Assembly: GCF_030464345.1 (NCBI RefSeq)
Contig: NZ_VCYH01000017.1
Span: forward strand, 1 to 34,744
From: Methanoculleus frigidifontis
GTDB lineage: Archaea > Halobacteriota > Methanomicrobia > Methanomicrobiales > Methanoculleaceae
DNA length: 34,744 nucleotides
Direction: 5' to 3'
Shown: piece by piece, positions 22,500 through 32,611 of the stretch
How positions within the stretch are numbered: position 1 is the stretch's first letter
How the letters are laid out: each line of letters opens with the position of its first letter
Notes under the pieces: model-generated
Told to the model about the DNA's origin: nothing
Databases searched by the model: none
The model's input: the letters and a program-made list of their open reading frames with translations, nothing else
Translations under genes and position numbers: made by a program

Positions 22500-24362
22500 T
22501 CACGATACACTGTTCGCGCACATCTGGTCAGACCTGCCCGCCTCATCCCCCCGGTCAAAGAACTTCTGCAGCCAGAGTTCCGCACAGACGATCCGCCAGA
22601 TCTCGGTCGAGTATGGCGCCTTTCCGTCCAGGAAGTCCCGATAGTTCGCGGCCACGGCATCCGCGTCCCAGTAAGGGCGCGTCCGGAACGCCTGCGATGC
22701 GAAGAGATCGAGGACCCGGGGCCGCAGTTCGTCCTTCATCCAGATCTCCTCCGGCGTCACGAACCCCATCTTGTCCATCCGGCAGCGTATCGCGTCGGGC
22801 ACAAGACCGCGTATCGCGCTCCGGAGCACGTACTTCGTGACGCCGCGGCGGATCTTCTGGTCGAGCGGCAGTGCCGCCAGGTACTCCACAAGCCGGTAGT
22901 CCAGGAACGGGACACGCGACTCGATGGAGAATGCCATGGAGTTCCGATCTTCCCAGTGGAGCAGGAGCGGAAGGTTCGTCGCAACGATCTCCCGTTTGAG
23001 CACCTCGGCAAGCGATCCCTGGTAGCGGAGCACCTCGGGAGGCTCGCCGCGCAAAAGGTCGCGCCTGCCCTTCCGCACCACCGCCTGCCGGAGCGCCCAG
23101 GAGAAGAACCCGCGGTGATGCCGCATGCTCCCCGCCAGCTCGAGCGCTGCCTGCCGCAGGCGCCCTTCCTGGAGGAGGCCGCGGATATACGACGTCTGGT
23201 AGGCGATGTAGCCGCCGAGCTGCTCGTCGGCGCCCTGGCCGTCCAGCACCACCTTCACCGAATCACGGGCAAGCCGCATCACGCAGTACTGGGCATAGAT
23301 GGAGAGCGACGCAAACGGTTCGTCCTGTGCATACAGCAGGTCGCCGATATCCTCCCAGAGGCGGGCGGGGTCCGGGCTCGTCCGGTGGCTCGACACCCCG
23401 GTCGCGTCCACGACCACGTCCATAAACCGGCTCTCCGAGAACCGGGGATCGTCGAAACAGACAGAGAAAGTGTTCTGCCGGCTCCCGACACTTGCAGGCG
23501 CCTCGGTGCGGAGGAGATCGTTGATCAGCACCGTCAGGGTCGACGAATCGATCCCGCCCGAGAGGCAGGTGCCGACCGGGACGTCCGCCCGCAGCCGGAG
23601 CCGCACCGCATCGGTCAGGAGATTTCGCAGACCTTCCCGCGCCGCCTCATCGGTTCCCGGAGCCGATGCCGCCTCGCCGTTCATCGCCACGTCCCAGTAG
23701 CGGAACGGTTCTCCGGCCCCGTCCGGCCTGACGACCAGTGCGTGCGCCGGCGGGAGCTGCAGGACGCCGGAGAACATCGTCTCGGCGGTGTGGTCGGCAA
23801 CCCCCCAGGCGAGGAACGTCATCAGCGCCCGGTCGTTCGGCCGGCGCCCGACGTCCGGGTGGACGAGCAGCGCTTTTATCTCGGAGGCAAAGAGGAACGA
23901 TCCGTCGGCGACGGCATAGTAGAACGGCTTGACGCCCAGACGGTCGCGGGCGCAGAAGAGCTCTTCGTTCCCGGCATCCCAGAGCGCAAACGCCCACATC
24001 CCGTTGAACCGCTGCAGGCAGTCCCTCCCCCACTCCTCGTAGGCGTGGAGGATCACCTCGGTATCGGTGCCTGAACGGAACCGGTGCCCGAGCGCGGCGA
24101 GCTCGTCCCGGAGTTCGACGTAGTTGTAGATCTCGCCGTTGAAGACCAGCCAGAGGGATTCGTCCTCGCTTCTCATCGGCTGCGCCCCTTCCTCCGTAAG
24201 ATCGATGATCGAGAGGCGGCGGTGGGCAAGCCCGGCCCGGCCGTCGATACGGAGGCCTTCGCCGTCGGGCCCCCGATGGGCAAGGCTCGCGGACATGGCA
24301 GCAAGGATGCCCGCATCGGGCGGCAGCGACGAGAGCATGAACTGGCCGGCTATCCCGCACAT
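22500..24362 (-). CDS. asnB: Asparagine synthase (glutamine-hydrolysing)
   Basis: A 620-residue class II amidotransferase. Cys2 after the initiator Met (MCGIAGQF) is the glutaminase nucleophile. LAHRGPDGEG, AHRRLSIIDL, FNGEIYNY (about 74-81) and SGTDTEVILHAYEEWG complete the N-terminal domain. The synthetase domain carries the PP-loop CLSGGIDSST (Ser268-Ser274), then DGQGADEQLGGY and SIESRVPFLDYRLVEY. It makes asparagine, or amidates a related acid, from glutamine and ATP. The length and C-terminal WLQKFFD match AsnB forms that also occur in surface-polysaccharide loci. It follows the AhpD-like gene by 80 nt on the same strand with no clear TATA box, so read-through from the operon is possible. 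Confidence 0.93.
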   Translation of the reverse strand: MCGIAGQFMLSSLPPDAGILAAMSASLAHRGPDGEGLRIDGRAGLAHRRLSIIDLTEEGAQPMRSEDESLWLVFNGEIYNYVELRDELAALGHRFRSGTDTEVILHAYEEWGRDCLQRFNGMWAFALWDAGNEELFCARDRLGVKPFYYAVADGSFLFASEIKALLVHPDVGRRPNDRALMTFLAWGVADHTAETMFSGVLQLPPAHALVVRPDGAGEPFRYWDVAMNGEAASAPGTDEAAREGLRNLLTDAVRLRLRADVPVGTCLSGGIDSSTLTVLINDLLRTEAPASVGSRQNTFSVCFDDPRFSESRFMDVVVDATGVSSHRTSPDPARLWEDIGDLLYAQDEPFASLSIYAQYCVMRLARDSVKVVLDGQGADEQLGGYIAYQTSYIRGLLQEGRLRQAALELAGSMRHHRGFFSWALRQAVVRKGRRDLLRGEPPEVLRYQGSLAEVLKREIVATNLPLLLHWEDRNSMAFSIESRVPFLDYRLVEYLAALPLDQKIRRGVTKYVLRSAIRGLVPDAIRCRMDKMGFVTPEEIWMKDELRPRVLDLFASQAFRTRPYWDADAVAANYRDFLDGKAPYSTEIWRIVCAELWLQKFFDRGDEAGRSDQMCANSVS

Positions 24363-24442: not shown

Positions 24443-24889
24443 TCACTCCGAGCAGGTCTTCTTCAGGCCGGTTCCGTTGATGTCGCAGGACGGGCAGACT
24501 TCCGGCTTTCCGTTGACCACACGGTAGGCGTCCGCGAGAACCGCCGAGTTGGCGAGCAGGCCGGCGATGAGGATCACCTCAAGGATCTCCGCCCGGGTTG
24601 CGCCTTTTGCCTTTGCCGCCGCCATGTGGTACTCCACGCAGTGGCTGCACTTCAGCGCCGCTCCCACGGCGAGGCTGATCAGCTCGATCATCTTCGGCTC
24701 GAGCTGGCTGGTCTCCACGACCGCACTCTTATAGAGGAGATGGGAGATGAGGATCTCGGGCCGCTCGCTCATCCGCTCAAAGATCAGCGGAACTCTTCCG
24801 TACTCCTTCTCGATATCGTGGAGCCACTCTTCTGCGATTGCCCCGGTGCCGCGCTCCGAGACGGTCGCGAGTATTCGTTCGAAATCCAT
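24443..24889 (-). CDS. Carboxymuconolactone decarboxylase/AhpD-like protein at the end of the MCR-activation operon
   Basis: A 148-residue all-helical protein. The AhpD-like redox motif is CSHCVEYH, with Cys81, Cys84 and His88, preceded by EPKMIELISLAVGAALK. Unusually, a C-terminal tail adds a second pair, CPSC (Cys132, Cys135), and a last Cys146, which could bind iron-sulfur or zinc. AhpD proteins do thiol-disulfide chemistry with peroxiredoxins; others of this family bind small acids. The ATG at 24889 is 2 nt after the mmp7 stop, so it is surely part of the operon. A redox role in the activation of MCR or protection from oxygen is inferred, not shown. Confidence 0.87.
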   Translation of the reverse strand: MDFERILATVSERGTGAIAEEWLHDIEKEYGRVPLIFERMSERPEILISHLLYKSAVVETSQLEPKMIELISLAVGAALKCSHCVEYHMAAAKAKGATRAEILEVILIAGLLANSAVLADAYRVVNGKPEVCPSCDINGTGLKKTCSE

Positions 24890-24891
24890 CG

Positions 24892-25833
24892 CTACACCAT
24901 GATCCGGGTTTCCGAGTACGGTTTGATCCGGATTAATATGTAATTGCGCATTTTGGAAGGGAGAACCTCGGCAATGTCCCCTACCGTCACCCCGTCGGCG
25001 ATCTCGAGCGCGCGGAGGGCGTCTGCGTACTCCTCGTACGGCAGCTTGACCCGCAGACCGGCGAGCTGGGCGGTCACCGGGGTCGGGTGCGTCAGCAGAC
25101 TCACTTCCTGCACCTTCTCTTCAAGGATGTCCATCAGCCGCGCCGGAAAGATCGAGAGCGGATCTTTGGCAATCTCGTCCCGCCTGGCGTCGAGGGCACG
25201 CGAAACCTCGTCCACCAGTTCGTCGAGTTTCCGTATCTCCTCCGGCCGCTTGAACCGGTGCATGATCCTGCCGACATCACCGACATATCCCTCGACGGGA
25301 GGATCGGTTATCCGGGTCAGCGTCTCGCGGTCGGGAGCGCCGGTGAGCACGATCGGCACGTCGACGCCGCGTCGCAGCACCGGGAACTTCTGCCGAAGGC
25401 ACTCCTCGAAGCTGCCGAGAACGTAGACGGCGAGATCGTGTTCGTTGATGACGTCCCGCTCCTCGGCGCTCAGGTTGGCGATCCGTTTGCCGAATCCCCG
25501 GGCAAGGCCGACCATATTGGTCTTGGCACCCGCCCGCCGGAGATACTCCGCGATGTCGCAGGAGGTATGCGGGAGATGGTGGATCTCGAGGCTCGGGCTG
25601 ACGACGGCGATCTCGGTACCGACGAGCGGCGCTTCGATCACCTCGCCGGCCAGGGGTTTGGCGATCCGCCGGATGAGGCCGACGTCGTCCCGCGGGACAA
25701 AGGACTGGAGCACCACTTCCTGCGCCATCACGTGCTTCTGCACGATATACCCTCCGAGATCGTCGATGAGATCGACGATCTCGTCGTGGCGGTAGACCCC
25801 GCCTTTATACGTGATCGGAACCAGCGTCGTCAC
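24892..25833 (-). CDS. mmp7: Methanogenesis marker protein 7 (McrC-like)
   Basis: A 313-residue protein restricted to methanogens and their relatives (TIGR03274 type). The middle part, IAVVSPSLEIHHLPHTSCDIAEYLRRAG followed by FGKRIANLSAEERDVINEHDLAVYVLGS and LRRGVDVPIVLTGAP, resembles McrC. Biochemical work in Methanothermobacter placed Mmp7 with McrC, Mmp3, Mmp17 and A2 in the complex that activates MCR. Cys92 (HTSCD) and Cys145 are the cysteines to note as possible cluster ligands. The ATG overlaps the mmp17 stop (ATGA), and the AhpD-like gene follows after 2 nt. Confidence 0.92.
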   Translation of the reverse strand: MTTLVPITYKGGVYRHDEIVDLIDDLGGYIVQKHVMAQEVVLQSFVPRDDVGLIRRIAKPLAGEVIEAPLVGTEIAVVSPSLEIHHLPHTSCDIAEYLRRAGAKTNMVGLARGFGKRIANLSAEERDVINEHDLAVYVLGSFEECLRQKFPVLRRGVDVPIVLTGAPDRETLTRITDPPVEGYVGDVGRIMHRFKRPEEIRKLDELVDEVSRALDARRDEIAKDPLSIFPARLMDILEEKVQEVSLLTHPTPVTAQLAGLRVKLPYEEYADALRALEIADGVTVGDIAEVLPSKMRNYILIRIKPYSETRIMV

Positions 25834-26414
25834 AGGCTCTCCCCCATGCGGGCAAACGTATCGGCCACCAGCGTCTCCACGACGTCTTCGGGCAGGGTGT
25901 CCTCACTGGCAACATAGTAAAATTTTGTGCCCCCGACGTGCTGGCGCCGCACCTTGAACCCCTCCGGAGCGATGTACTGCATCGCATAGATCACGTCCTG
26001 GTAGATGGATACACTGGGATCGGCCACCACCATATCCTCGATCTCTCCCTGTGCAAACAGCTCTTCCGGGAGGACGACCGTGAACCGGTCGGGCTGATCG
26101 ACGTTCTCTTTGCCGAACTTCGCCCAGAGACTGGTCAGCAGCGGCGCAAGATACGTCTCGTCGCCGATATCGAGGACGGCTTTTCCTTCCTGAACGTTGA
26201 TGCCGGCAAAGTCCCGCACCCGCACCCGACGCGGCAGGTGCCGGATCACCCCGGCGGCAACGAAGATCGGAACCTTCGGGTCGACGAAGATGTGGAGTTT
26301 CTCAAACACCTTCAGAAGATCGAGGTCCTGCAGGACGTCGGCGGCGATCCGTTTGTAGGCCTCGCCGCCCACCGGATCGCTGCACTCGACCTCGAAGTAC
26401 TTCAGCGGCGGCAT
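25830..26414 (-). CDS. mmp17: Methanogenesis marker protein 17
   Basis: The protein has 194 residues from the ATG at 26414, 2 nt after the mmp15 stop. The frame is open far upstream, but that part is an Arg-rich shadow of mmp15. It begins MPPLKYFEVECSDPVGG and shows the family blocks VFEKLHIFVDPKVPIFVAAGV, DETYLAPLLTSLWAKFG and PSVSIYQDVIYAMQYIAPEG. Mmp17 was recovered in the MCR-activating complex with McrC, A2, Mmp3 and Mmp7. Its own activity is not known. The mmp7 start overlaps its stop by 4 nt. Confidence 0.92.
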   Translation of the reverse strand: MPPLKYFEVECSDPVGGEAYKRIAADVLQDLDLLKVFEKLHIFVDPKVPIFVAAGVIRHLPRRVRVRDFAGINVQEGKAVLDIGDETYLAPLLTSLWAKFGKENVDQPDRFTVVLPEELFAQGEIEDMVVADPSVSIYQDVIYAMQYIAPEGFKVRRQHVGGTKFYYVASEDTLPEDVVETLVADTFARMGESL

Positions 26415-26416
26415 CG

Positions 26417-27655
26417 TTAGTCCCCTTTGATATAGCCGGAGGCGAGCAGGGCAGAACCGACCGCCCCGATGTACTGCGAGTGCGGCGGGACGACGATATC
26501 GGTCTGCAGAAGCTCGCCCATCGCGTGAACCAGCCCCTCGATCAGCGACGTTCCGCCCACCATGATCACCGGCTCTTTGATGTCGACCTCCTGGAGCTGC
26601 TGCTCGAAGACCTGTTCGGCGACGCTGTGGCAGGCGGCGGCGGCGACGTCTTCCGGCGAGCTGCCTGCTGCCAGCGCGTTCACCAGGCTCTGCGTCCCGA
26701 AGACGATACAATAGCTGTTCATCGGGACGTTCTTGCCGAATCCCTTCAGGGCAAGCGGCCCGAGCTCCGTGATGTCGACGCCGAGCCGCTTTGCGGTCAT
26801 CTCCAGGAACCGCCCGCTCGCACCGGCGCAGATGCCGCCCATCGTGAACGTCCCGGGGATGCCGTCGATGACACTGATCGCCTTGTTGTCCATACCGCCG
26901 ATATCGATGACCGTCGACGCACCCCGCTGATGATCGGCGAGATAGACGGCACCCTTCGAGTTGACGGTGAGTTCTTCCTGGATCAGGTCGGCGCCGAGAT
27001 GTTTGCCGATCAGGAACCGGCCGTATCCGGTGGTGCCGATCGCCTGGATGTCATCGCGCGAAAGGCCGGCCTCGGCGAGGGCGAGGGCGACCACCTCGTC
27101 CGCACTCTTGAGCACCTCGATGGTCGGGCGCCACCCGGTTCCGACGACCTTGTTGTCCCGCATCACGACCGCCTTCGTGGTGCTCGACCCGCTGTCCACC
27201 CCGAGCGTGATACCGGTCTGCTCCTCCCGGGCAAGGAGCGCACGCCGCCGGGCGATGGTGGTCAGCGCCTCCATCCGCGTGAGCAGCGTCCCGGCGGTCG
27301 TCCGTTCGGTGAAGGAGTAGCTGACGACGGGGAGGGTGGAGCGCTCGTGGATGTACCGGCGCAGCTCGTTCCTGACGATCGCCGCCTCGGCGCACCGGAA
27401 ACAGGTGGCGATGAAGACGGCGTCCGCGTCCACCTTCCCCTCGACGAGTGCTTTCGCACGCGCAATGGCGAGTTTGAGGTCTGCGCTCCTGACATCGAGC
27501 CCGAACTCCTGCACCGCCGACATAACGTCTGCGAGCGCTACGTCCGGGAAGAAGATCTCGGCGTCGACCGCGCCCGCCGCCTCGTAGATCTCCCCCTGCA
27601 CCCCGCTGTACTCGGGGCCGCAGGAGAGCTGGGCGATCCTGACCTTCTGCGTCAT
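26417..27655 (-). CDS. mmp15: Methanogenesis marker protein 15, archerase-like ASKHA ATPase
   Basis: A 412-residue protein (TIGR03286 type) with two parts. Residues 1-147 are a methanogen-specific domain with CFRC (Cys85, Cys88). Residues 148-412 are a BadF/HgdC-type ATPase with phosphate-1 loop [13 protein letters not shown] (Asp153), [10 protein letters not shown] (phosphate-2) and VGGTSLIEG (adenosine motif). The two cysteines that hold the [4Fe-4S] cluster at the dimer interface of 2-hydroxyacyl-CoA dehydratase activators are present: Cys276 ([13 protein letters not shown]) and Cys316 ([10 protein letters not shown]). Such proteins use ATP to drive low-potential electron transfer. No dehydratase is nearby, so the partner is probably within this operon (inference). 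It overlaps mmp5 by 4 nt. Confidence 0.92.
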
Positions 27656-28104
27656 GCAGTCTCCTCCGTCTTCAGGTTCGCGAGGAAATCCCTGATGGCG
27701 GCGACAAACCGGACACCTTCCTCTTCGCTCCGGGGATACTCCACTTCAAGAATCGGAATGTCCTTGCTCCTGAGCGAAAAAAGGATCAGCTCGTCTGTCC
27801 GGGCGCAGCCCATGCACCCGAACGCAAGGTCCGCATCGGTCACGATGACAGCAGCCTCCGCAGCCTCGATCAGCGGCCCGTACACCGACATCCGGCCGCG
27901 GACACCGGACGGGACCTCTACGGCCGCATACTTGAGTCCTTTCTTCGGCTCCTCCGGGGTGATCTGCAGCGGCGGCGATTCGACGCCGGCCGTCTGAATC
28001 CGCTCCCGGATGGAGAGAGCGGCGCCGAGCGGCTGATGCCCGAACCGTGCCACCAGATCGGAGAGTATCAGACTCGTTGCAGGATAAATAAAGACCTTTG
28101 CCAT
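27652..28104 (-). CDS. mmp5: Methanogenesis marker protein 5
   Basis: A 150-residue methanogen-specific protein (TIGR03271 type). Recognised by [43 protein letters not shown] and [16 protein letters not shown]. The last contains CxxC (Cys97, Cys100), a possible metal or redox site. Function unknown. It starts 4 nt after mmp6 and its stop overlaps the mmp15 start (ATGA), so Mmp5 and Mmp15 are made together, which may reflect a physical partnership. Confidence 0.9.
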
Positions 28105-28108
28105 ATCT

Positions 28109-28573
28109 TCAGGACTCCTCAGCTTCTTCGATCAGATCTTTGAGTTTGCGAATATCCAGGAGCGGATGTTTTTCCCGTCTTTCGGCCGGCTGTTCCGGTG
28201 CAGCGCCGCCGCCTTTCCCGAGCGCCTCAAGGCCGTGGGAGACGTAGCGGAGCAGCGGGAACTCGGCTTCGTGGCCCAGGTAGCCGGGGCGTGCCCCGCC
28301 GAGGTTCGCCCGGCAGCGCCTGGGGTCGCCGGGCGGAAATCCCCGGTCCTTGACGAAGATATGGGCAGGGTCAAACTCCCGTATTCTCCGGATGAGGCGG
28401 TCGACCTCTTCGGGCTTCCCGGTGACCTGCAGCCCGAAGCAGGTCTCCTTGATCATCACCCCTTCGGAGACCTCATACGCACGGAGCGCCAGCGCGGAGG
28501 GCGTCATCGTCGGCGACTCGACGAAGACGTATTTTGTAACGGTACCCACAAAACGGGGCGTGTAGTCGGCCAC
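28109..28573 (-). CDS. mmp6: Methanogenesis marker protein 6
   Basis: A 154-residue methanogen-specific protein (TIGR03272 type) with GTG start at 28573. Motifs: VTKYVFVESPTMTPSALALRAY, VMIKETCFGLQVTGK (Cys45), HIFVKDRGFPPGDPRRCRANLGG (Cys87) and a Lys/Glu-rich end. Function unknown. The GTG directly abuts the mmp3 stop, and a full GGAGGTGA site inside the end of mmp3 (28578-28585) drives its translation. Confidence 0.9.
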   Translation of the reverse strand: MADYTPRFVGTVTKYVFVESPTMTPSALALRAYEVSEGVMIKETCFGLQVTGKPEEVDRLIRRIREFDPAHIFVKDRGFPPGDPRRCRANLGGARPGYLGHEAEFPLLRYVSHGLEALGKGGGAAPEQPAERREKHPLLDIRKLKDLIEEAEES

Positions 28574-30100
28574 TTACGTCACCTCCCTGATGTACACCAT
28601 CGTACCTTCCTTCAGGCCTTCCAGTTTTTCGATGTCGAGGACGGCACCGATGATATTTGTACCGGAGAACGGCTCCGACGTCGGCCCGAATTCGCGGCTC
28701 TCCGTCGTCCGCACCCCGACGAGGCCGGCACCTTTCCGGGAGTCGTTGGTCATGGCGAGGGTGTCTGCAGGCACGACGTCTACCGGGGTATTCTCCGGGA
28801 TGATACCGATACCCCGTGCGATGGACGGCTTGAAAAGGTAGACATCCTCGAACTTGAAATAAAACGGGATTTTCCCGACGGAATGGGTCTTGAGCCCCGT
28901 AACCTCCCGGAGGATGGCGCACGACAGCGGTGCGTCCTCGTCATGCAGACGGATGCCGATCACCCGGTCGGGCGGCAGGGTCGCAACCGCAACCTCGCCC
29001 GCTCCCAGAACCTCAAGGGTCGTCGGGGGATCCTGGTCGACCACGACCCGGTCGTCGTCAGAGTCGTCGGAGGTGATCCGGATGCCCCGCTCTGCAGCGA
29101 TGTTCCGCGCCTCGCCGAGAGAAAGGCCGACGAGGTCGAACTTTTCGGGCGTCGCCCGGATGCAGAAGGTGTCTCCCTCATTCGCGAGAACTGCGAGTTC
29201 GAGACCGTGCGTCACCCGGCCGACGACCGTATGGCTGGGGCTTGCAGGAACGTCCGCAGTATAGATATAGACCGCTCCTTCCGACCGGCCGCTCGTCCGC
29301 ACGGTGACGGCGCCCGCCAGACGCGGTTCGGTCATCTCCGCCGGGACCCTCGTCCGCACGAGGTGCTCGTCCCGGATATGTGTGCTGCTCGAACGGCCGA
29401 CCGAGAACCGGCCCCGCTGCATAGCCAGGAGAAAATGTTCGGCGCTCTGTGCCGTCCGGGTATCGACACCGCCGGCGGCGAGCCCCTCAACCACGGCCTT
29501 CACGTGGGTGACGATACGCATCCCCTCTTCAAGCGGGAGCACAGGATCGGTCGTGGTAAATGCCCGCGACCGGTCGGCCTGACCCCGCAGCCGCTCGAAC
29601 CCGAGGATCGTATCGCCTTCGGTCCAGCGGTCGATGACGCTCTTCCCGCTGACAACCCGGCCGACGATGCCCCCGCCGGTCGAAGCGCCGTGATCGGCGG
29701 TATGGCTCATTCGGGAGAAGATAAGGTACGACCTGCCCGGGTCGTATCCGCCGCACCCGAGGACGACCTCACCCCGCTCGTACCGGTAGGGAAGGCGTGC
29801 AGGGGACACGTCCGATCGAAACGGCCCGAACGCGGCCGCATACCGGTCGGCCCAGCGGAGGACAAGGTGCCGGGAAAAGTCAGGATCGTCAAGCGGCAGC
29901 CGATACATACCGGAACCGGTCTGCTCTACGATGACGTCCCCCGCTGTCGAGACGATCCGGATCGTCTCGGTCTCTGTTGCTACTTCTTCCGCCGGCCGCA
30001 CTATCGCAACAATGCACGCAGTATCTCTTTTGGGAAGGAGATCTCCGAGAAGGGTGCCCTCCGGGACGGTAATCTGTTCCTCATCAAGGTAGATCTCCAT
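28574..30100 (-). CDS. mmp3: Methanogenesis marker protein 3 (UPF0288)
   Basis: A 508-residue methanogen-specific protein (TIGR03268 type). The N-terminus is ubiquitin-like (MEIYLDEEQITVPEGTLLGDLL). A middle part holds GEVVLGCGGYDPGRSYLIFS and THIRDEHLVRTRVPAEM. The C-terminal half includes VYIYTADVPASPSHTVVGRV, which has a cyclophilin-like flavour, and SCAILREVTGLKTHSVGKIPFYFKFEDVYLF. Mmp3 is a subunit of the MCR-activating complex. Cysteines in DTACIVA, VLGCGGY and LSCAIL are candidate ligands. The ATG at 30100 is preceded by AGGTGA; the gene starts 13 nt after atwA and abuts mmp6. Confidence 0.92.
   Translation of the reverse strand: MEIYLDEEQITVPEGTLLGDLLPKRDTACIVAIVRPAEEVATETETIRIVSTAGDVIVEQTGSGMYRLPLDDPDFSRHLVLRWADRYAAAFGPFRSDVSPARLPYRYERGEVVLGCGGYDPGRSYLIFSRMSHTADHGASTGGGIVGRVVSGKSVIDRWTEGDTILGFERLRGQADRSRAFTTTDPVLPLEEGMRIVTHVKAVVEGLAAGGVDTRTAQSAEHFLLAMQRGRFSVGRSSSTHIRDEHLVRTRVPAEMTEPRLAGAVTVRTSGRSEGAVYIYTADVPASPSHTVVGRVTHGLELAVLANEGDTFCIRATPEKFDLVGLSLGEARNIAAERGIRITSDDSDDDRVVVDQDPPTTLEVLGAGEVAVATLPPDRVIGIRLHDEDAPLSCAILREVTGLKTHSVGKIPFYFKFEDVYLFKPSIARGIGIIPENTPVDVVPADTLAMTNDSRKGAGLVGVRTTESREFGPTSEPFSGTNIIGAVLDIEKLEGLKEGTMVYIREVT
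28578..28585 (-). promoter_or_regulatory. Perfect Shine-Dalgarno site that decides the GTG start of mmp6
   Basis: GGAGGTGA on the minus strand lies 4-5 nt before the GTG at 28573 and within the last codons of mmp3. It explains efficient use of the GTG start in the absence of a spacer. Confidence 0.7.
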
Positions 30101-30113
30101 TCGTCACCTGCCT

Positions 30114-31724
30114 TCAGGAGGCGGCGCCTCCCATAACTTCTCTCTCGTCCTCCGTGAGCTCTGCGAGAACCTCGGCCGTCGGCCCCATCTTAATGATCTT
30201 CCCGCCCCGCATCAGTGCAACGCGATCGCAGATATCCTTCACAAAGTCCATATCGTGGGAGACGACAATAAAGGTCTCGTCCGTCTCCTCGCGGGCATGC
30301 ATGATCGAGTGCTTCACATCGATCTTGGTGATCGGGTCCATCGTTCCCGTCGGCTCGTCGAGGATGACGATCCGCGGCTCCCGGATCAGGACTTGTGCCA
30401 GCGCCACACGGTGCTTCTCGCCCTCCGAGAGCTGGCCGGGGTGGCGCGCCAGGATCTCCAGGGCCTTCTTCTCCGGGAACCCGGCCATACCGAGCGTAAT
30501 GATCGCCTTGCGCATCGCAAGCTCCTTCGGGAACTCGAGGCCGATGGCATCGGTGAGGTTATCGAGCACCGTCCGGTGCGGGTAGAGGTCGTACTCCTGG
30601 TGGAGCAGTCCGATATATGCCTTGGCACGACCCCGCTTTTCGATCCCCGGTTTGGTCATATCGACCCAGTCTTCCCCGATCCGGACGTTCAGCTCACCGC
30701 TGGTCGGTTCCAGGATACCGGAGATCAGGCGCGAGAGGGTGGTCTTCCCGGCACCGCTCTTGCCGATGATGCCGAAGATCTCCTTCTCGGCCACCTCAAA
30801 CGAGACGCCGTTCACCGCCTTCACCACACCGCGGTCGACCGAGAGGTACCGCTTGATGACATCGCGGGCGACCATCACCTTCTCACCGACCTCGGCGACC
30901 GTGTGCTGTTCGAGGTCGCTGTAGTCCTCCATGAACCGGTGAATGACCTCTTTCGGCTGCCCGATCTTGATGATCTCGCCTTCCTCCAGGAGGAGAGCCC
31001 GGTCGGCGACGTCCTCGATCACCTGCGAGAAGTGCGAGGTGACGACCATGCCCATCTCGTTTGTACGGGCGCTCTCGATCAGCATTTTGTGCACCAGCAC
31101 CGCCGTCTCGGGATCGAGGGTGCCGGTCGGTTCGTCGGCGAAGAGCAGGACCGGTTCCTTTGCAAGCTGGCGGGCGAGCACGACCCGCTGCTTCTCACCG
31201 CCCGAGAGGTCGCGGGCGATGTGCATCATCCGGTGCGAGAGCCTGACCTCGTCGATGAGATCGGCGGCCCGGCCGACCGCTTTCTCGGACGGATAGCCGA
31301 TATCGTCCAGAGCATGCAGGACGTTCTCGATGACCCGGTCATCGCCGTACAGCGCAAACGTCCTCTGGAACATGATGGCTGTGCGGCGCATGATCCGCCG
31401 TTTCAGGGGCGCATTCTCCTCCGCCCAGAAATCAACATCCTGTGCCTTCAGTTCTCCGCCGCATCTCGGGCAGGGCTTGCCGGCGGCACTCTGCACGGTG
31501 AGATAGTCGCATCCCTCGCAGGCGGCGATATGGTATATAATCTGCCCGCCCGTCGGGGGTTGGTCGACTCCACGCATCAGGTGCATCAAAACGGTCTTTC
31601 CGGATCCGCTCCTGCCGATAATCCCTACAATCTCTCCCTCTGCAATCTCAAAGCTTATATTTTTCAATGCACTATTGCCATTGAAATCCATACAGAGGTT
31701 TTTGACCGTTATTAATGGGTTCAT
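30114..31724 (-). CDS. atwA: MCR activation system component A2 (twin ABC ATPase)
   Basis: A 536-residue soluble protein with two ABC domains in one chain. It is the ATP-binding component of the complex that reduces Ni in coenzyme F430 of methyl-coenzyme M reductase. Domain 1: Walker A GRSGSGKT (37-44), signature LSGGEKQR (173-180), Walker B LLFADEPT. A zinc-ribbon-like insert with Cys69, Cys72, Cys85 and Cys88 lies in domain 1. Domain 2: Walker A GKSGAGKT (321-328), signature LSEGEKHR, Walker B IVILDEPT. There is no membrane protein partner. It is the first gene of the operon: GAGGAG lies 7 nt before the ATG and a TATA box at 31769-31778. Confidence 0.95.
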   Translation of the reverse strand: MNPLITVKNLCMDFNGNSALKNISFEIAEGEIVGIIGRSGSGKTVLMHLMRGVDQPPTGGQIIYHIAACEGCDYLTVQSAAGKPCPRCGGELKAQDVDFWAEENAPLKRRIMRRTAIMFQRTFALYGDDRVIENVLHALDDIGYPSEKAVGRAADLIDEVRLSHRMMHIARDLSGGEKQRVVLARQLAKEPVLLFADEPTGTLDPETAVLVHKMLIESARTNEMGMVVTSHFSQVIEDVADRALLLEEGEIIKIGQPKEVIHRFMEDYSDLEQHTVAEVGEKVMVARDVIKRYLSVDRGVVKAVNGVSFEVAEKEIFGIIGKSGAGKTTLSRLISGILEPTSGELNVRIGEDWVDMTKPGIEKRGRAKAYIGLLHQEYDLYPHRTVLDNLTDAIGLEFPKELAMRKAIITLGMAGFPEKKALEILARHPGQLSEGEKHRVALAQVLIREPRIVILDEPTGTMDPITKIDVKHSIMHAREETDETFIVVSHDMDFVKDICDRVALMRGGKIIKMGPTAEVLAELTEDEREVMGGAAS

Positions 31725-31768: not shown

Positions 31769-31778
31769 GTTTTATATC
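31769..31778 (-). promoter_or_regulatory. TATA box of the MCR-activation operon
   Basis: The minus strand reads GATATAAAAC. It overlaps the stop codon of the upstream HAD gene (31772-31774). A start about 25 nt downstream gives a leader of about 24 nt with the GAGGAG site. The whole eight-gene operon probably depends on this promoter; internal spacings are 13 nt or less. Confidence 0.6.
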
Positions 31779-32611
31779 GTACCAGTATCCGGCGCCGAAC
31801 CATCGCCGAGAAGGGTTTTGATGATACCCGGTACTTCGGTGACATTTCTGATGACGTAGTCGGTGCTGCGGTACAGCACTTCAGGCTTCGTATCCGACTG
31901 CTCCGCCGAAAGGATGGCCACATCGGCTTTTTTGAAGGCATGGAGGTCGTTGATCGCGTCACCGACCATGACCACGACGTCGTACTCCTTTCGCAGGTCT
32001 TCGACGATCTGTGCTTTCATCGACGGCGTAGCAATGCCGTACACGCGTTCCCGCGGTATCCCGAGATAATCAGCCATCTTCTCGAGCTTTACCACCCGGT
32101 CGCCGGAGGCGATGTATGCCGGGATACCCATCCGGTGCAGCTCGCTGATCGTCTCTTTCGCACCGTCGAAGGGTTTGCCGCCCGTGGTGACCGTAAACTC
32201 GATGCCGGGCAGGTCCATGTTCAGGATCACCCCCGAGTTGAGCGTCACGATCGATTCCTGCCTGCAGCTCTTCCAGACCTGGCGGATGCACTCCTGAAGG
32301 TCACCGACGCGGGCACCGGTGTCGGTGTAGAGCGCATCGGCAACCTTCTCGGCCGGGACCACGCGGGAGGCGCATGCGACGCCGAATCCGATCCCGTTCT
32401 CCACGAGAAACGCCGCGAGCGGGGTATCCGGCGGTGCGTCAACGACATCGCGCGAGTGGAGGTGGAGCACCACAAGAGCCCTGCTTTCGCAGGCGAAGGT
32501 GAGGGTGGTCGTCTCCATGTCGATGAGCATCTCGGCGCTCTGCACGTTTCGCGCTACGCGGAAGGTTTTCAGGAGTGTTCCTGCACTATCAAAGACAACG
32601 GCAACCGACAT
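31772..32611 (-). CDS. HAD superfamily hydrolase, P-type ATPase-like soluble protein
   Basis: A 279-residue soluble protein. HAD motif I is FDSAGTLL (Asp8 nucleophile), with Ala at the +2 position where most phosphatases have the acid-base Asp; P-type ATPases likewise lack it (DKTGT). Motif II is IASGDR, motif III a Lys in TPSMKAQIVEDL, and motif IV VGDAINDLHAF, all as in P-type ATPase P-domains, without any membrane segments. Residues about 25-145 form a long cap-like insert with several Cys. It may be a phosphatase or phosphotransferase; substrate unknown. It lies just upstream of atwA on the same strand, so it may be read with the operon. Confidence 0.82.
   Translation of the reverse strand: MSVAVVFDSAGTLLKTFRVARNVQSAEMLIDMETTTLTFACESRALVVLHLHSRDVVDAPPDTPLAAFLVENGIGFGVACASRVVPAEKVADALYTDTGARVGDLQECIRQVWKSCRQESIVTLNSGVILNMDLPGIEFTVTTGGKPFDGAKETISELHRMGIPAYIASGDRVVKLEKMADYLGIPRERVYGIATPSMKAQIVEDLRKEYDVVVMVGDAINDLHAFKKADVAILSAEQSDTKPEVLYRSTDYVIRNVTEVPGIIKTLLGDGSAPDTGTI

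Follow-up and report, generated by a model that had tools for sequence, protein, structure and literature searches.

An AhpD-like protein with a C-terminal dithiol tail and a lasting genomic link to the MCR-activation operon in Methanomicrobiales and other Halobacteriota

MCR accounts for almost all methane of biological origin, and the question of how cells reduce its nickel cofactor has yet to be answered. Among the closest described systems is the MCR activation complex of M. maripaludis (PDB 8s7v, 8s7x and 9h1l; PMC12176620); partner proteins of MCR activation bear [8Fe-9S-C]-type clusters, and the structure published in 2025 did not settle which electron source serves in the cell or which auxiliary factors take part. 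The potential of free F430 is -650 mV. DTT activates MCR together with component A2 and crude A3a, and does not do so with the purified complex, and the authors suspect auxiliary A3a proteins. The heterodisulfide CoM-S-S-CoB is inhibitory and has been seen in the proximal active site. The second described system that concerns us here is AhpD of M. tuberculosis, a protein of the CMD fold that works through a relay of Glu118, Cys130, His132, Cys133 and His137 (PMC3141380), has AhpC as its partner and receives electrons from lipoylated SucB.

The locus described here lies in a stretch of 34,744 nucleotides of Methanoculleus frigidifontis DNA (contig NZ_VCYH01000017.1), referred to below as the window. 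Its features are as follows.

24443..24889, minus strand: AhpD/CMD-like protein of 148 aa, encoded at the end of the mmp operon (ORF call, PF02627 and TIGR00778 profiles, cross-genome adjacency)
24626..24649, minus strand: catalytic CxxC-xxx-H motif, C81-S-H83-C84-V-E-Y-H88 (conservation; match to the M. tuberculosis AhpD relay)
24485..24496, minus strand: C-terminal dithiol CPSC, residues 132-135, in a variable tail (pair in all aligned full-length orthologues)
24443..24478, minus strand: tail end, residues 138-148 including Cys146, plus the stop codon (low pLDDT; Cys146 in a minority of orthologues)
24892..25833, minus strand: mmp7, which bears cluster ligands in the solved complex (TIGR03274, 430.9 bits; PDB 8s7v_H, E 2.1e-75)
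25830..26414 (boundary at about 26414), minus strand: mmp17 (TIGR03291, 181.4 bits)
26417..27655, minus strand: mmp15, acyl-CoA dehydratase activase-like (TIGR03286, 741.3 bits)
27652..28104, minus strand: mmp5 (TIGR03271, 231.3 bits)
28109..28573, minus strand: mmp6 (TIGR03272, 147 bits)
28574..30100, minus strand: mmp3 (TIGR03268, 491.4 bits)
30114..31724, minus strand: component A2, ABC-type ATPase of MCR activation (TIGR03269, 883.5 bits)

NCBIfam profiles give the operon order A2-mmp3-mmp6-mmp5-mmp15-mmp17-mmp7-CMD, entirely on the minus strand, with gaps or overlaps of no more than 13 nt. The TAG stop codon of mmp7 ends at 24892 and is followed by two bases (CG) and then by the ATG of the CMD gene at 24889. 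Coordinates and profiles thus agree with a preliminary description of this DNA, in which the gene was placed 2 nt after mmp7 as the last member of a packed MCR-activation operon, and the residues which that description had singled out (C81, C84, H88, C132, C135 and C146) were all found at those positions. The gene that follows, 80 nt after the CMD gene, is asparagine synthase-like (window 22500-24362, minus strand) and is present at few related loci. Directly upstream of A2 is a gene for a HAD-type hydrolase (window 31772-32611, minus strand; PF00702, 65.7 bits; P-type-ATPase-like part). This HAD gene recurs in most loci of sufficient length in the order Methanomicrobiales and in group f8, and so counts as another conserved member of the MCR-activation neighbourhood; f8 includes genomes that we take for Methanosarcina and its kin.

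The encoded protein is a member of the CMD/AhpD-like superfamily by profile, by fold and by the presence of a five-residue relay. It scores 59.9 bits against PF02627 (cut-off 23) and 36 bits against the AhpD core profile TIGR00778 (cut-off 27.8). A match to PDB 1gu9 (E 0.04) aligns residues 66-116 with residues 115-165, and the resulting offset of 49 places E69, C81, H83, C84 and H88 on the five relay residues of M. tuberculosis AhpD in the order given above. C81, C84 and H88, the cysteines and histidine of the CxxC-EYH motif noted earlier, are invariant in all 90 distinct orthologues of the order; E69 is found in 117/117 and H83 in 113/117 rows from the order and the phylum, a few of these rows being counted twice. 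The AlphaFold model, built with an alignment of 46 orthologues, has a pLDDT of 86.1 and is all-helical, with seven helices and a CxxC helical hairpin. Its best Foldseek matches are AhpD/CMD proteins, namely RclX, the R. rubrum AhpD core and M. thermautotrophicus O27018. The core fits well, as shown by a TM-score of 0.81 by target length and an rmsd of 2.1 for 3bey_C (range for 3bey 0.80-0.83), and the whole-chain TM-score by query length is only 0.5-0.6.

Beyond the core, the protein continues into a tail with a second dithiol. A cysteine pair is present in the tail of all 112 aligned orthologues, with a spacing that runs overall from two to five residues and a linker of 5 to 23 residues between R123 and the pair. 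Among the 90 distinct rows of the order the pair is CxxC in 59 and CxxxC in 30, with a spacing of four in the remaining locus (L071), and C135 is kept in every row; outside the order, a tail CxxC occurs in 21 rows and a spacing of five in one locus (L129). Direct matches to the tail pattern were obtained for 77 of 80 loci in the collection of named genomes; two of the others (L191 and L222) keep the pair behind an altered AYR, and the third (L209) is broken early. Methanosarcina-like copies have further tail cysteines.

About 20 CMD paralogues encoded elsewhere lack the tail pair, the exception being two extra copies in genome G109; this accords with the earlier view that a C-terminal CPSC is unusual for AhpD-like proteins. 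The two G109 copies (L245 and L246) are nearly identical to each other, lie away from the operon and have RFH in place of the usual xYH. Cys146, which had been put forward as part of the signature, was rejected in that role, as it occurs in 29 of the 90 rows of the order and only in those of the window's own family. The comparison of operon-linked copies with others that had been proposed comes out in favour of the CPSC pair, which apart from the G109 copies is absent from the paralogues examined, and against Cys146. In the AlphaFold model pLDDT drops under 50 for residues 138-148 and averages 49 over the block 131-140, so the tail is probably flexible or disordered. When the tree was left free, long-branched paralogues of the L002 type fell inside the tail-bearing type with weak support, and a constraint holding the tail type together was not rejected (p-AU 0.233). 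Tail-bearing copies do not clearly form one clade in these sequence trees, and a single clade is compatible with that p-AU value.

The gene that follows mmp7 was compared, as the preliminary description had proposed, across 150 genomes of Methanomicrobiales from 6 families and 35 genera, the named records including Methanoculleus, Methanofollis, Methanocalculus, Methanoregula, Methanogenium and Methanolinea. A CMD match was found in 148 of these genomes and mmp7 in 145, and the orthologue could be placed in 145. In 125 of the 145 placed genomes the CMD gene follows mmp7 on its strand at a distance of 0-250 bp (criterion: within 300 bp), and in 16 more it lies 0.7-6.1 kb downstream, again on the same strand; in the other four, the contig that carries the CMD gene showed no mmp7 on that strand. 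One locus (genome G121, contig 375, L247) has the CMD gene in two overlapping frames, a frameshift or an assembly error, and that assembly has almost no mmp7. The gene order A2-mmp3-6-5-15-17-7-CMD is kept in the six families (f1-f6), mostly with the HAD gene in front. The ORFs that come after the CMD gene at 80 loci sort into 39 clusters, and 51 of them have the opposite orientation; these ORFs are mechanical calls, which makes the cluster count an upper bound on turnover. As this next ORF is not conserved, the CMD gene forms the stable end of a conserved block.

Similar linkage extends beyond the order. A phylum sample of 296 genomes gave 71 placed matches outside Methanomicrobiales, and in 62 of these the CMD gene lies 25-206 bp after mmp7. 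Three genomes of group f14 have it 1.5-2.7 kb after mmp7, and the remaining six matches are placed elsewhere, three of them (f12 and f23) being tail-less paralogues. The operon order with a terminal CMD gene recurs in f8 and in f21, where the portion read contains no HAD gene; f21 and f14 resemble groups of the Methanothrix and Methanocella type, names that are tentative. Adjacency is seen in 187 genomes from all of Methanomicrobiales, f8 and f21; in 19 other genomes the gene is separated by at most 6.1 kb on the same strand. In f28 and f32 the CMD gene lies outside the operon. In part of f5 and in f14 the genes between mmp7 and CMD are mostly on the opposite strand, so that co-transcription of a separated CMD gene with mmp7 is not always possible. 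At the separated loci (L104, L107, L109-L112, L117, L121 and L136-L138) the intervening genes encode membrane proteins and proteins that look lipoprotein-like by eye, related ones of which recur in several genomes, and they have no evident redox role. Within the phylum sample no linked orthologue was found in f7, f9, f12, f15 and f18, all of which have mmp7, or in f10, where mmp7 has diverged, indicating that the CMD gene is not universally needed. In species outside the phylum (Methanobacteriota and others) the CMD chains seen in the PDB are short (3bey and 3d7i), and none of 14 pattern matches on viral contigs encodes a relative. These observations support the CMD gene as a lasting part of the MCR-activation neighbourhood in Methanomicrobiales and in other lineages of the phylum.

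An ordinary CMD-family gene could have been caught at the end of the operon and kept there by slow genome change, and the copies outside the operon in two groups, together with the opposite-strand genes that intervene in others, are what would be expected of it. Against this, adjacency has persisted in those 187 genomes while the next ORF turned over, and in 19 genomes even the separated copy stays close by and on the same strand; we regard accidental linkage as highly improbable. It had been argued at the outset that the link would be accidental if related methanogens did not keep the gene next to mmp7 or did not conserve the tail cysteines. Most of them keep the gene there and the aligned orthologues keep the tail pair, Cys146 excepted, and by that measure the link is not accidental. 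It is also improbable, though somewhat less so, that the protein is a cofactor carrier whose cysteines, in core and tail, would take up or pass on a metal, be it an Fe-S cluster, zinc or something else, during assembly of Mmp7 or McrC. Two conserved cysteine pairs, the cluster-bearing partners and the extra tail cysteines of the Methanosarcina-like copies would suit such a carrier, but the spacing and linker of the tail pair are very variable for a rigid site and the core CxxC is surrounded by the AhpD redox relay. Nor does any partner cysteine depend on the presence of the CMD gene: no cysteine appearing only with it was convincing in Mmp7, 17, 5, 6, 15, 3 or A2, the candidates in Mmp17 and Mmp3 that track the gene are present in about half to two thirds of rows, and the well-conserved partner cysteines are the same with and without it. 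The cluster-carrying role entertained in the preliminary description is thus not supported.

A role of the textbook kind has to be weighed as well. The protein scores 21.7 bits against the AhpD subfamily profile TIGR00777 (cut-off 191.95) and 20.3 bits against TIGR02425 for PcaC, 4-carboxymuconolactone decarboxylase (cut-off 155.7), and so belongs to neither by these profiles. The top AhpC-TSA match in the genome (C4:246112-246501, L281) lies next to the paralogue L003, 67 bp beyond its CMD match (C4:245793-246044) and on the same strand, and this Cys-less paralogue thus directly precedes the best AhpC-type peroxiredoxin match of the genome. No AhpC-type peroxiredoxin was found in the window's contig or adjoining the CMD gene in the operons read, and no 2-oxoacid dehydrogenase E2 (PF00198), the lipoyl donor of AhpD, was found in the genome (98.99% complete), which has four thioredoxin-family matches. 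The place of the top AhpC-TSA match beside another paralogue, and the failure to find a lipoyl E2, make the textbook AhpC/AhpD role unlikely. A looser version, in which the protein is a local antioxidant that removes peroxides or repairs oxidised thiols and so protects the oxygen-sensitive activation proteins without a part in electron delivery or activation, is a possible reading and the least unlikely of these alternatives. It draws on the full AhpD relay, on top fold matches that are AhpD-like, RclX and the R. rubrum AhpD core among them, and on the peroxidase activity of AhpD itself (PMC3141380). Its weakness, apart from the lack of a neighbouring peroxiredoxin in the operons read, is that alone it explains neither the persistence of the gene with mmp7 nor the tail dithiol.

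The CMD protein is a strong candidate for a helper in MCR activation. Our preferred reading, to which we give about an even chance, is that the MCR-activation machinery of the Halobacteriota methanogens sampled here has in this protein its own, dedicated thiol-disulfide oxidoreductase. The E69/H83/H88 relay would drive a redox CxxC inside the helical AhpD core, and the second dithiol, on the disordered tail, would shuttle reducing equivalents between that CxxC and a partner. The C-terminal cysteine pairs of class I ribonucleotide reductase shuttle electrons, and the putative tail shuttle is modelled on that enzyme by analogy. Likely donors would be thioredoxin or the CoM/CoB thiols, and the likely targets disulfides that block activation, whether oxidised cysteines of the Mmp proteins and McrC or the inhibitory CoM-S-S-CoB. 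What speaks against this reading is that the M. maripaludis complex was reported without such a protein, that several groups with mmp7 gave no linked orthologue, that the gene has left the operon or is separated from it in others, and that its presence is not tracked by any partner cysteine. The potentials at which CxxC proteins trade electrons with thiols and disulfides lie near -0.3 V, well above that of free F430, and the CMD protein is therefore unlikely to reduce F430 alone. The need for low-potential electrons, which had been adduced in favour of a role, is for this reason a weak argument. Thiol chemistry is still relevant, given that DTT works with A2 and crude A3a and not with the purified complex, and a thiol relay, whether it removes disulfides or supplies electrons to an ATP-gated transfer step, would fit both the DTT/A3a and the heterodisulfide data. 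The A3a work used another kind of methanogen and would relate to the CMD protein by analogy. More specifically, and doubtfully, the protein might be the missing thiol-level factor, its tail dithiol docking on the Mmp7/Mmp17 or MCR face and either passing on electrons from cellular thiols or clearing the heterodisulfide from the proximal site. If so, it would correspond to whatever makes DTT effective with crude A3a and not with the purified complex, and organisms without it would need another protein for the same job.

The papers searched contain no link between CMD/AhpD proteins and the mmp genes or MCR activation, one CMD protein, Mvol_0776, being discussed together with desulfoferrodoxin; nor did they yield a study of the activation complex from a group that carries the gene. 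The place of the CMD protein at the MCR-activation operon thus appears to be undescribed, as had been supposed.

The locus can be set beside four kinds of known protein. The PDB entries that match the query best, by sequence or by fold, are 2ouw (R. rubrum AhpD core), 7y4r (RclX) and 3bey (O27018); they have the CMD core in common with it, but with chains of 138, 112 and 96 aa their sequence matches end at or before query residue 124 and leave the tail unmatched; we know of no link of these three to MCR activation. The paralogues L002 and L003 from the same genome also score above the PF02627 cut-off, but L002 has one cysteine at the motif and L003 none, and neither has the tail pair. M. tuberculosis AhpD (PDB 1gu9/1knc) shares the helical fold and all five relay residues. 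It differs in that its AhpC partner and lipoylated donor have no equivalent in the query's operon and genome, respectively, and in that the query aligns to residues 115-165 only, the C-terminal dithiol tail being additional. The query is thus an AhpD-like family member with a tail dithiol and a lasting MCR-operon link, conserved well beyond the window. Finally, A2, Mmp3, Mmp17 and Mmp7, four of the five named activation proteins of the M. maripaludis complex, are encoded in the query's operon and McrC is not; no AhpD/CMD protein was reported for that complex, with which a DUF2098 protein co-purified instead (PMC12176620). As a conserved, putative redox protein that closes the operon and is not reported in the M. 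maripaludis preparation, it offers a concrete experimental target, and Methanosarcina, which is genetically tractable, very likely belongs to one of the groups with the gene.
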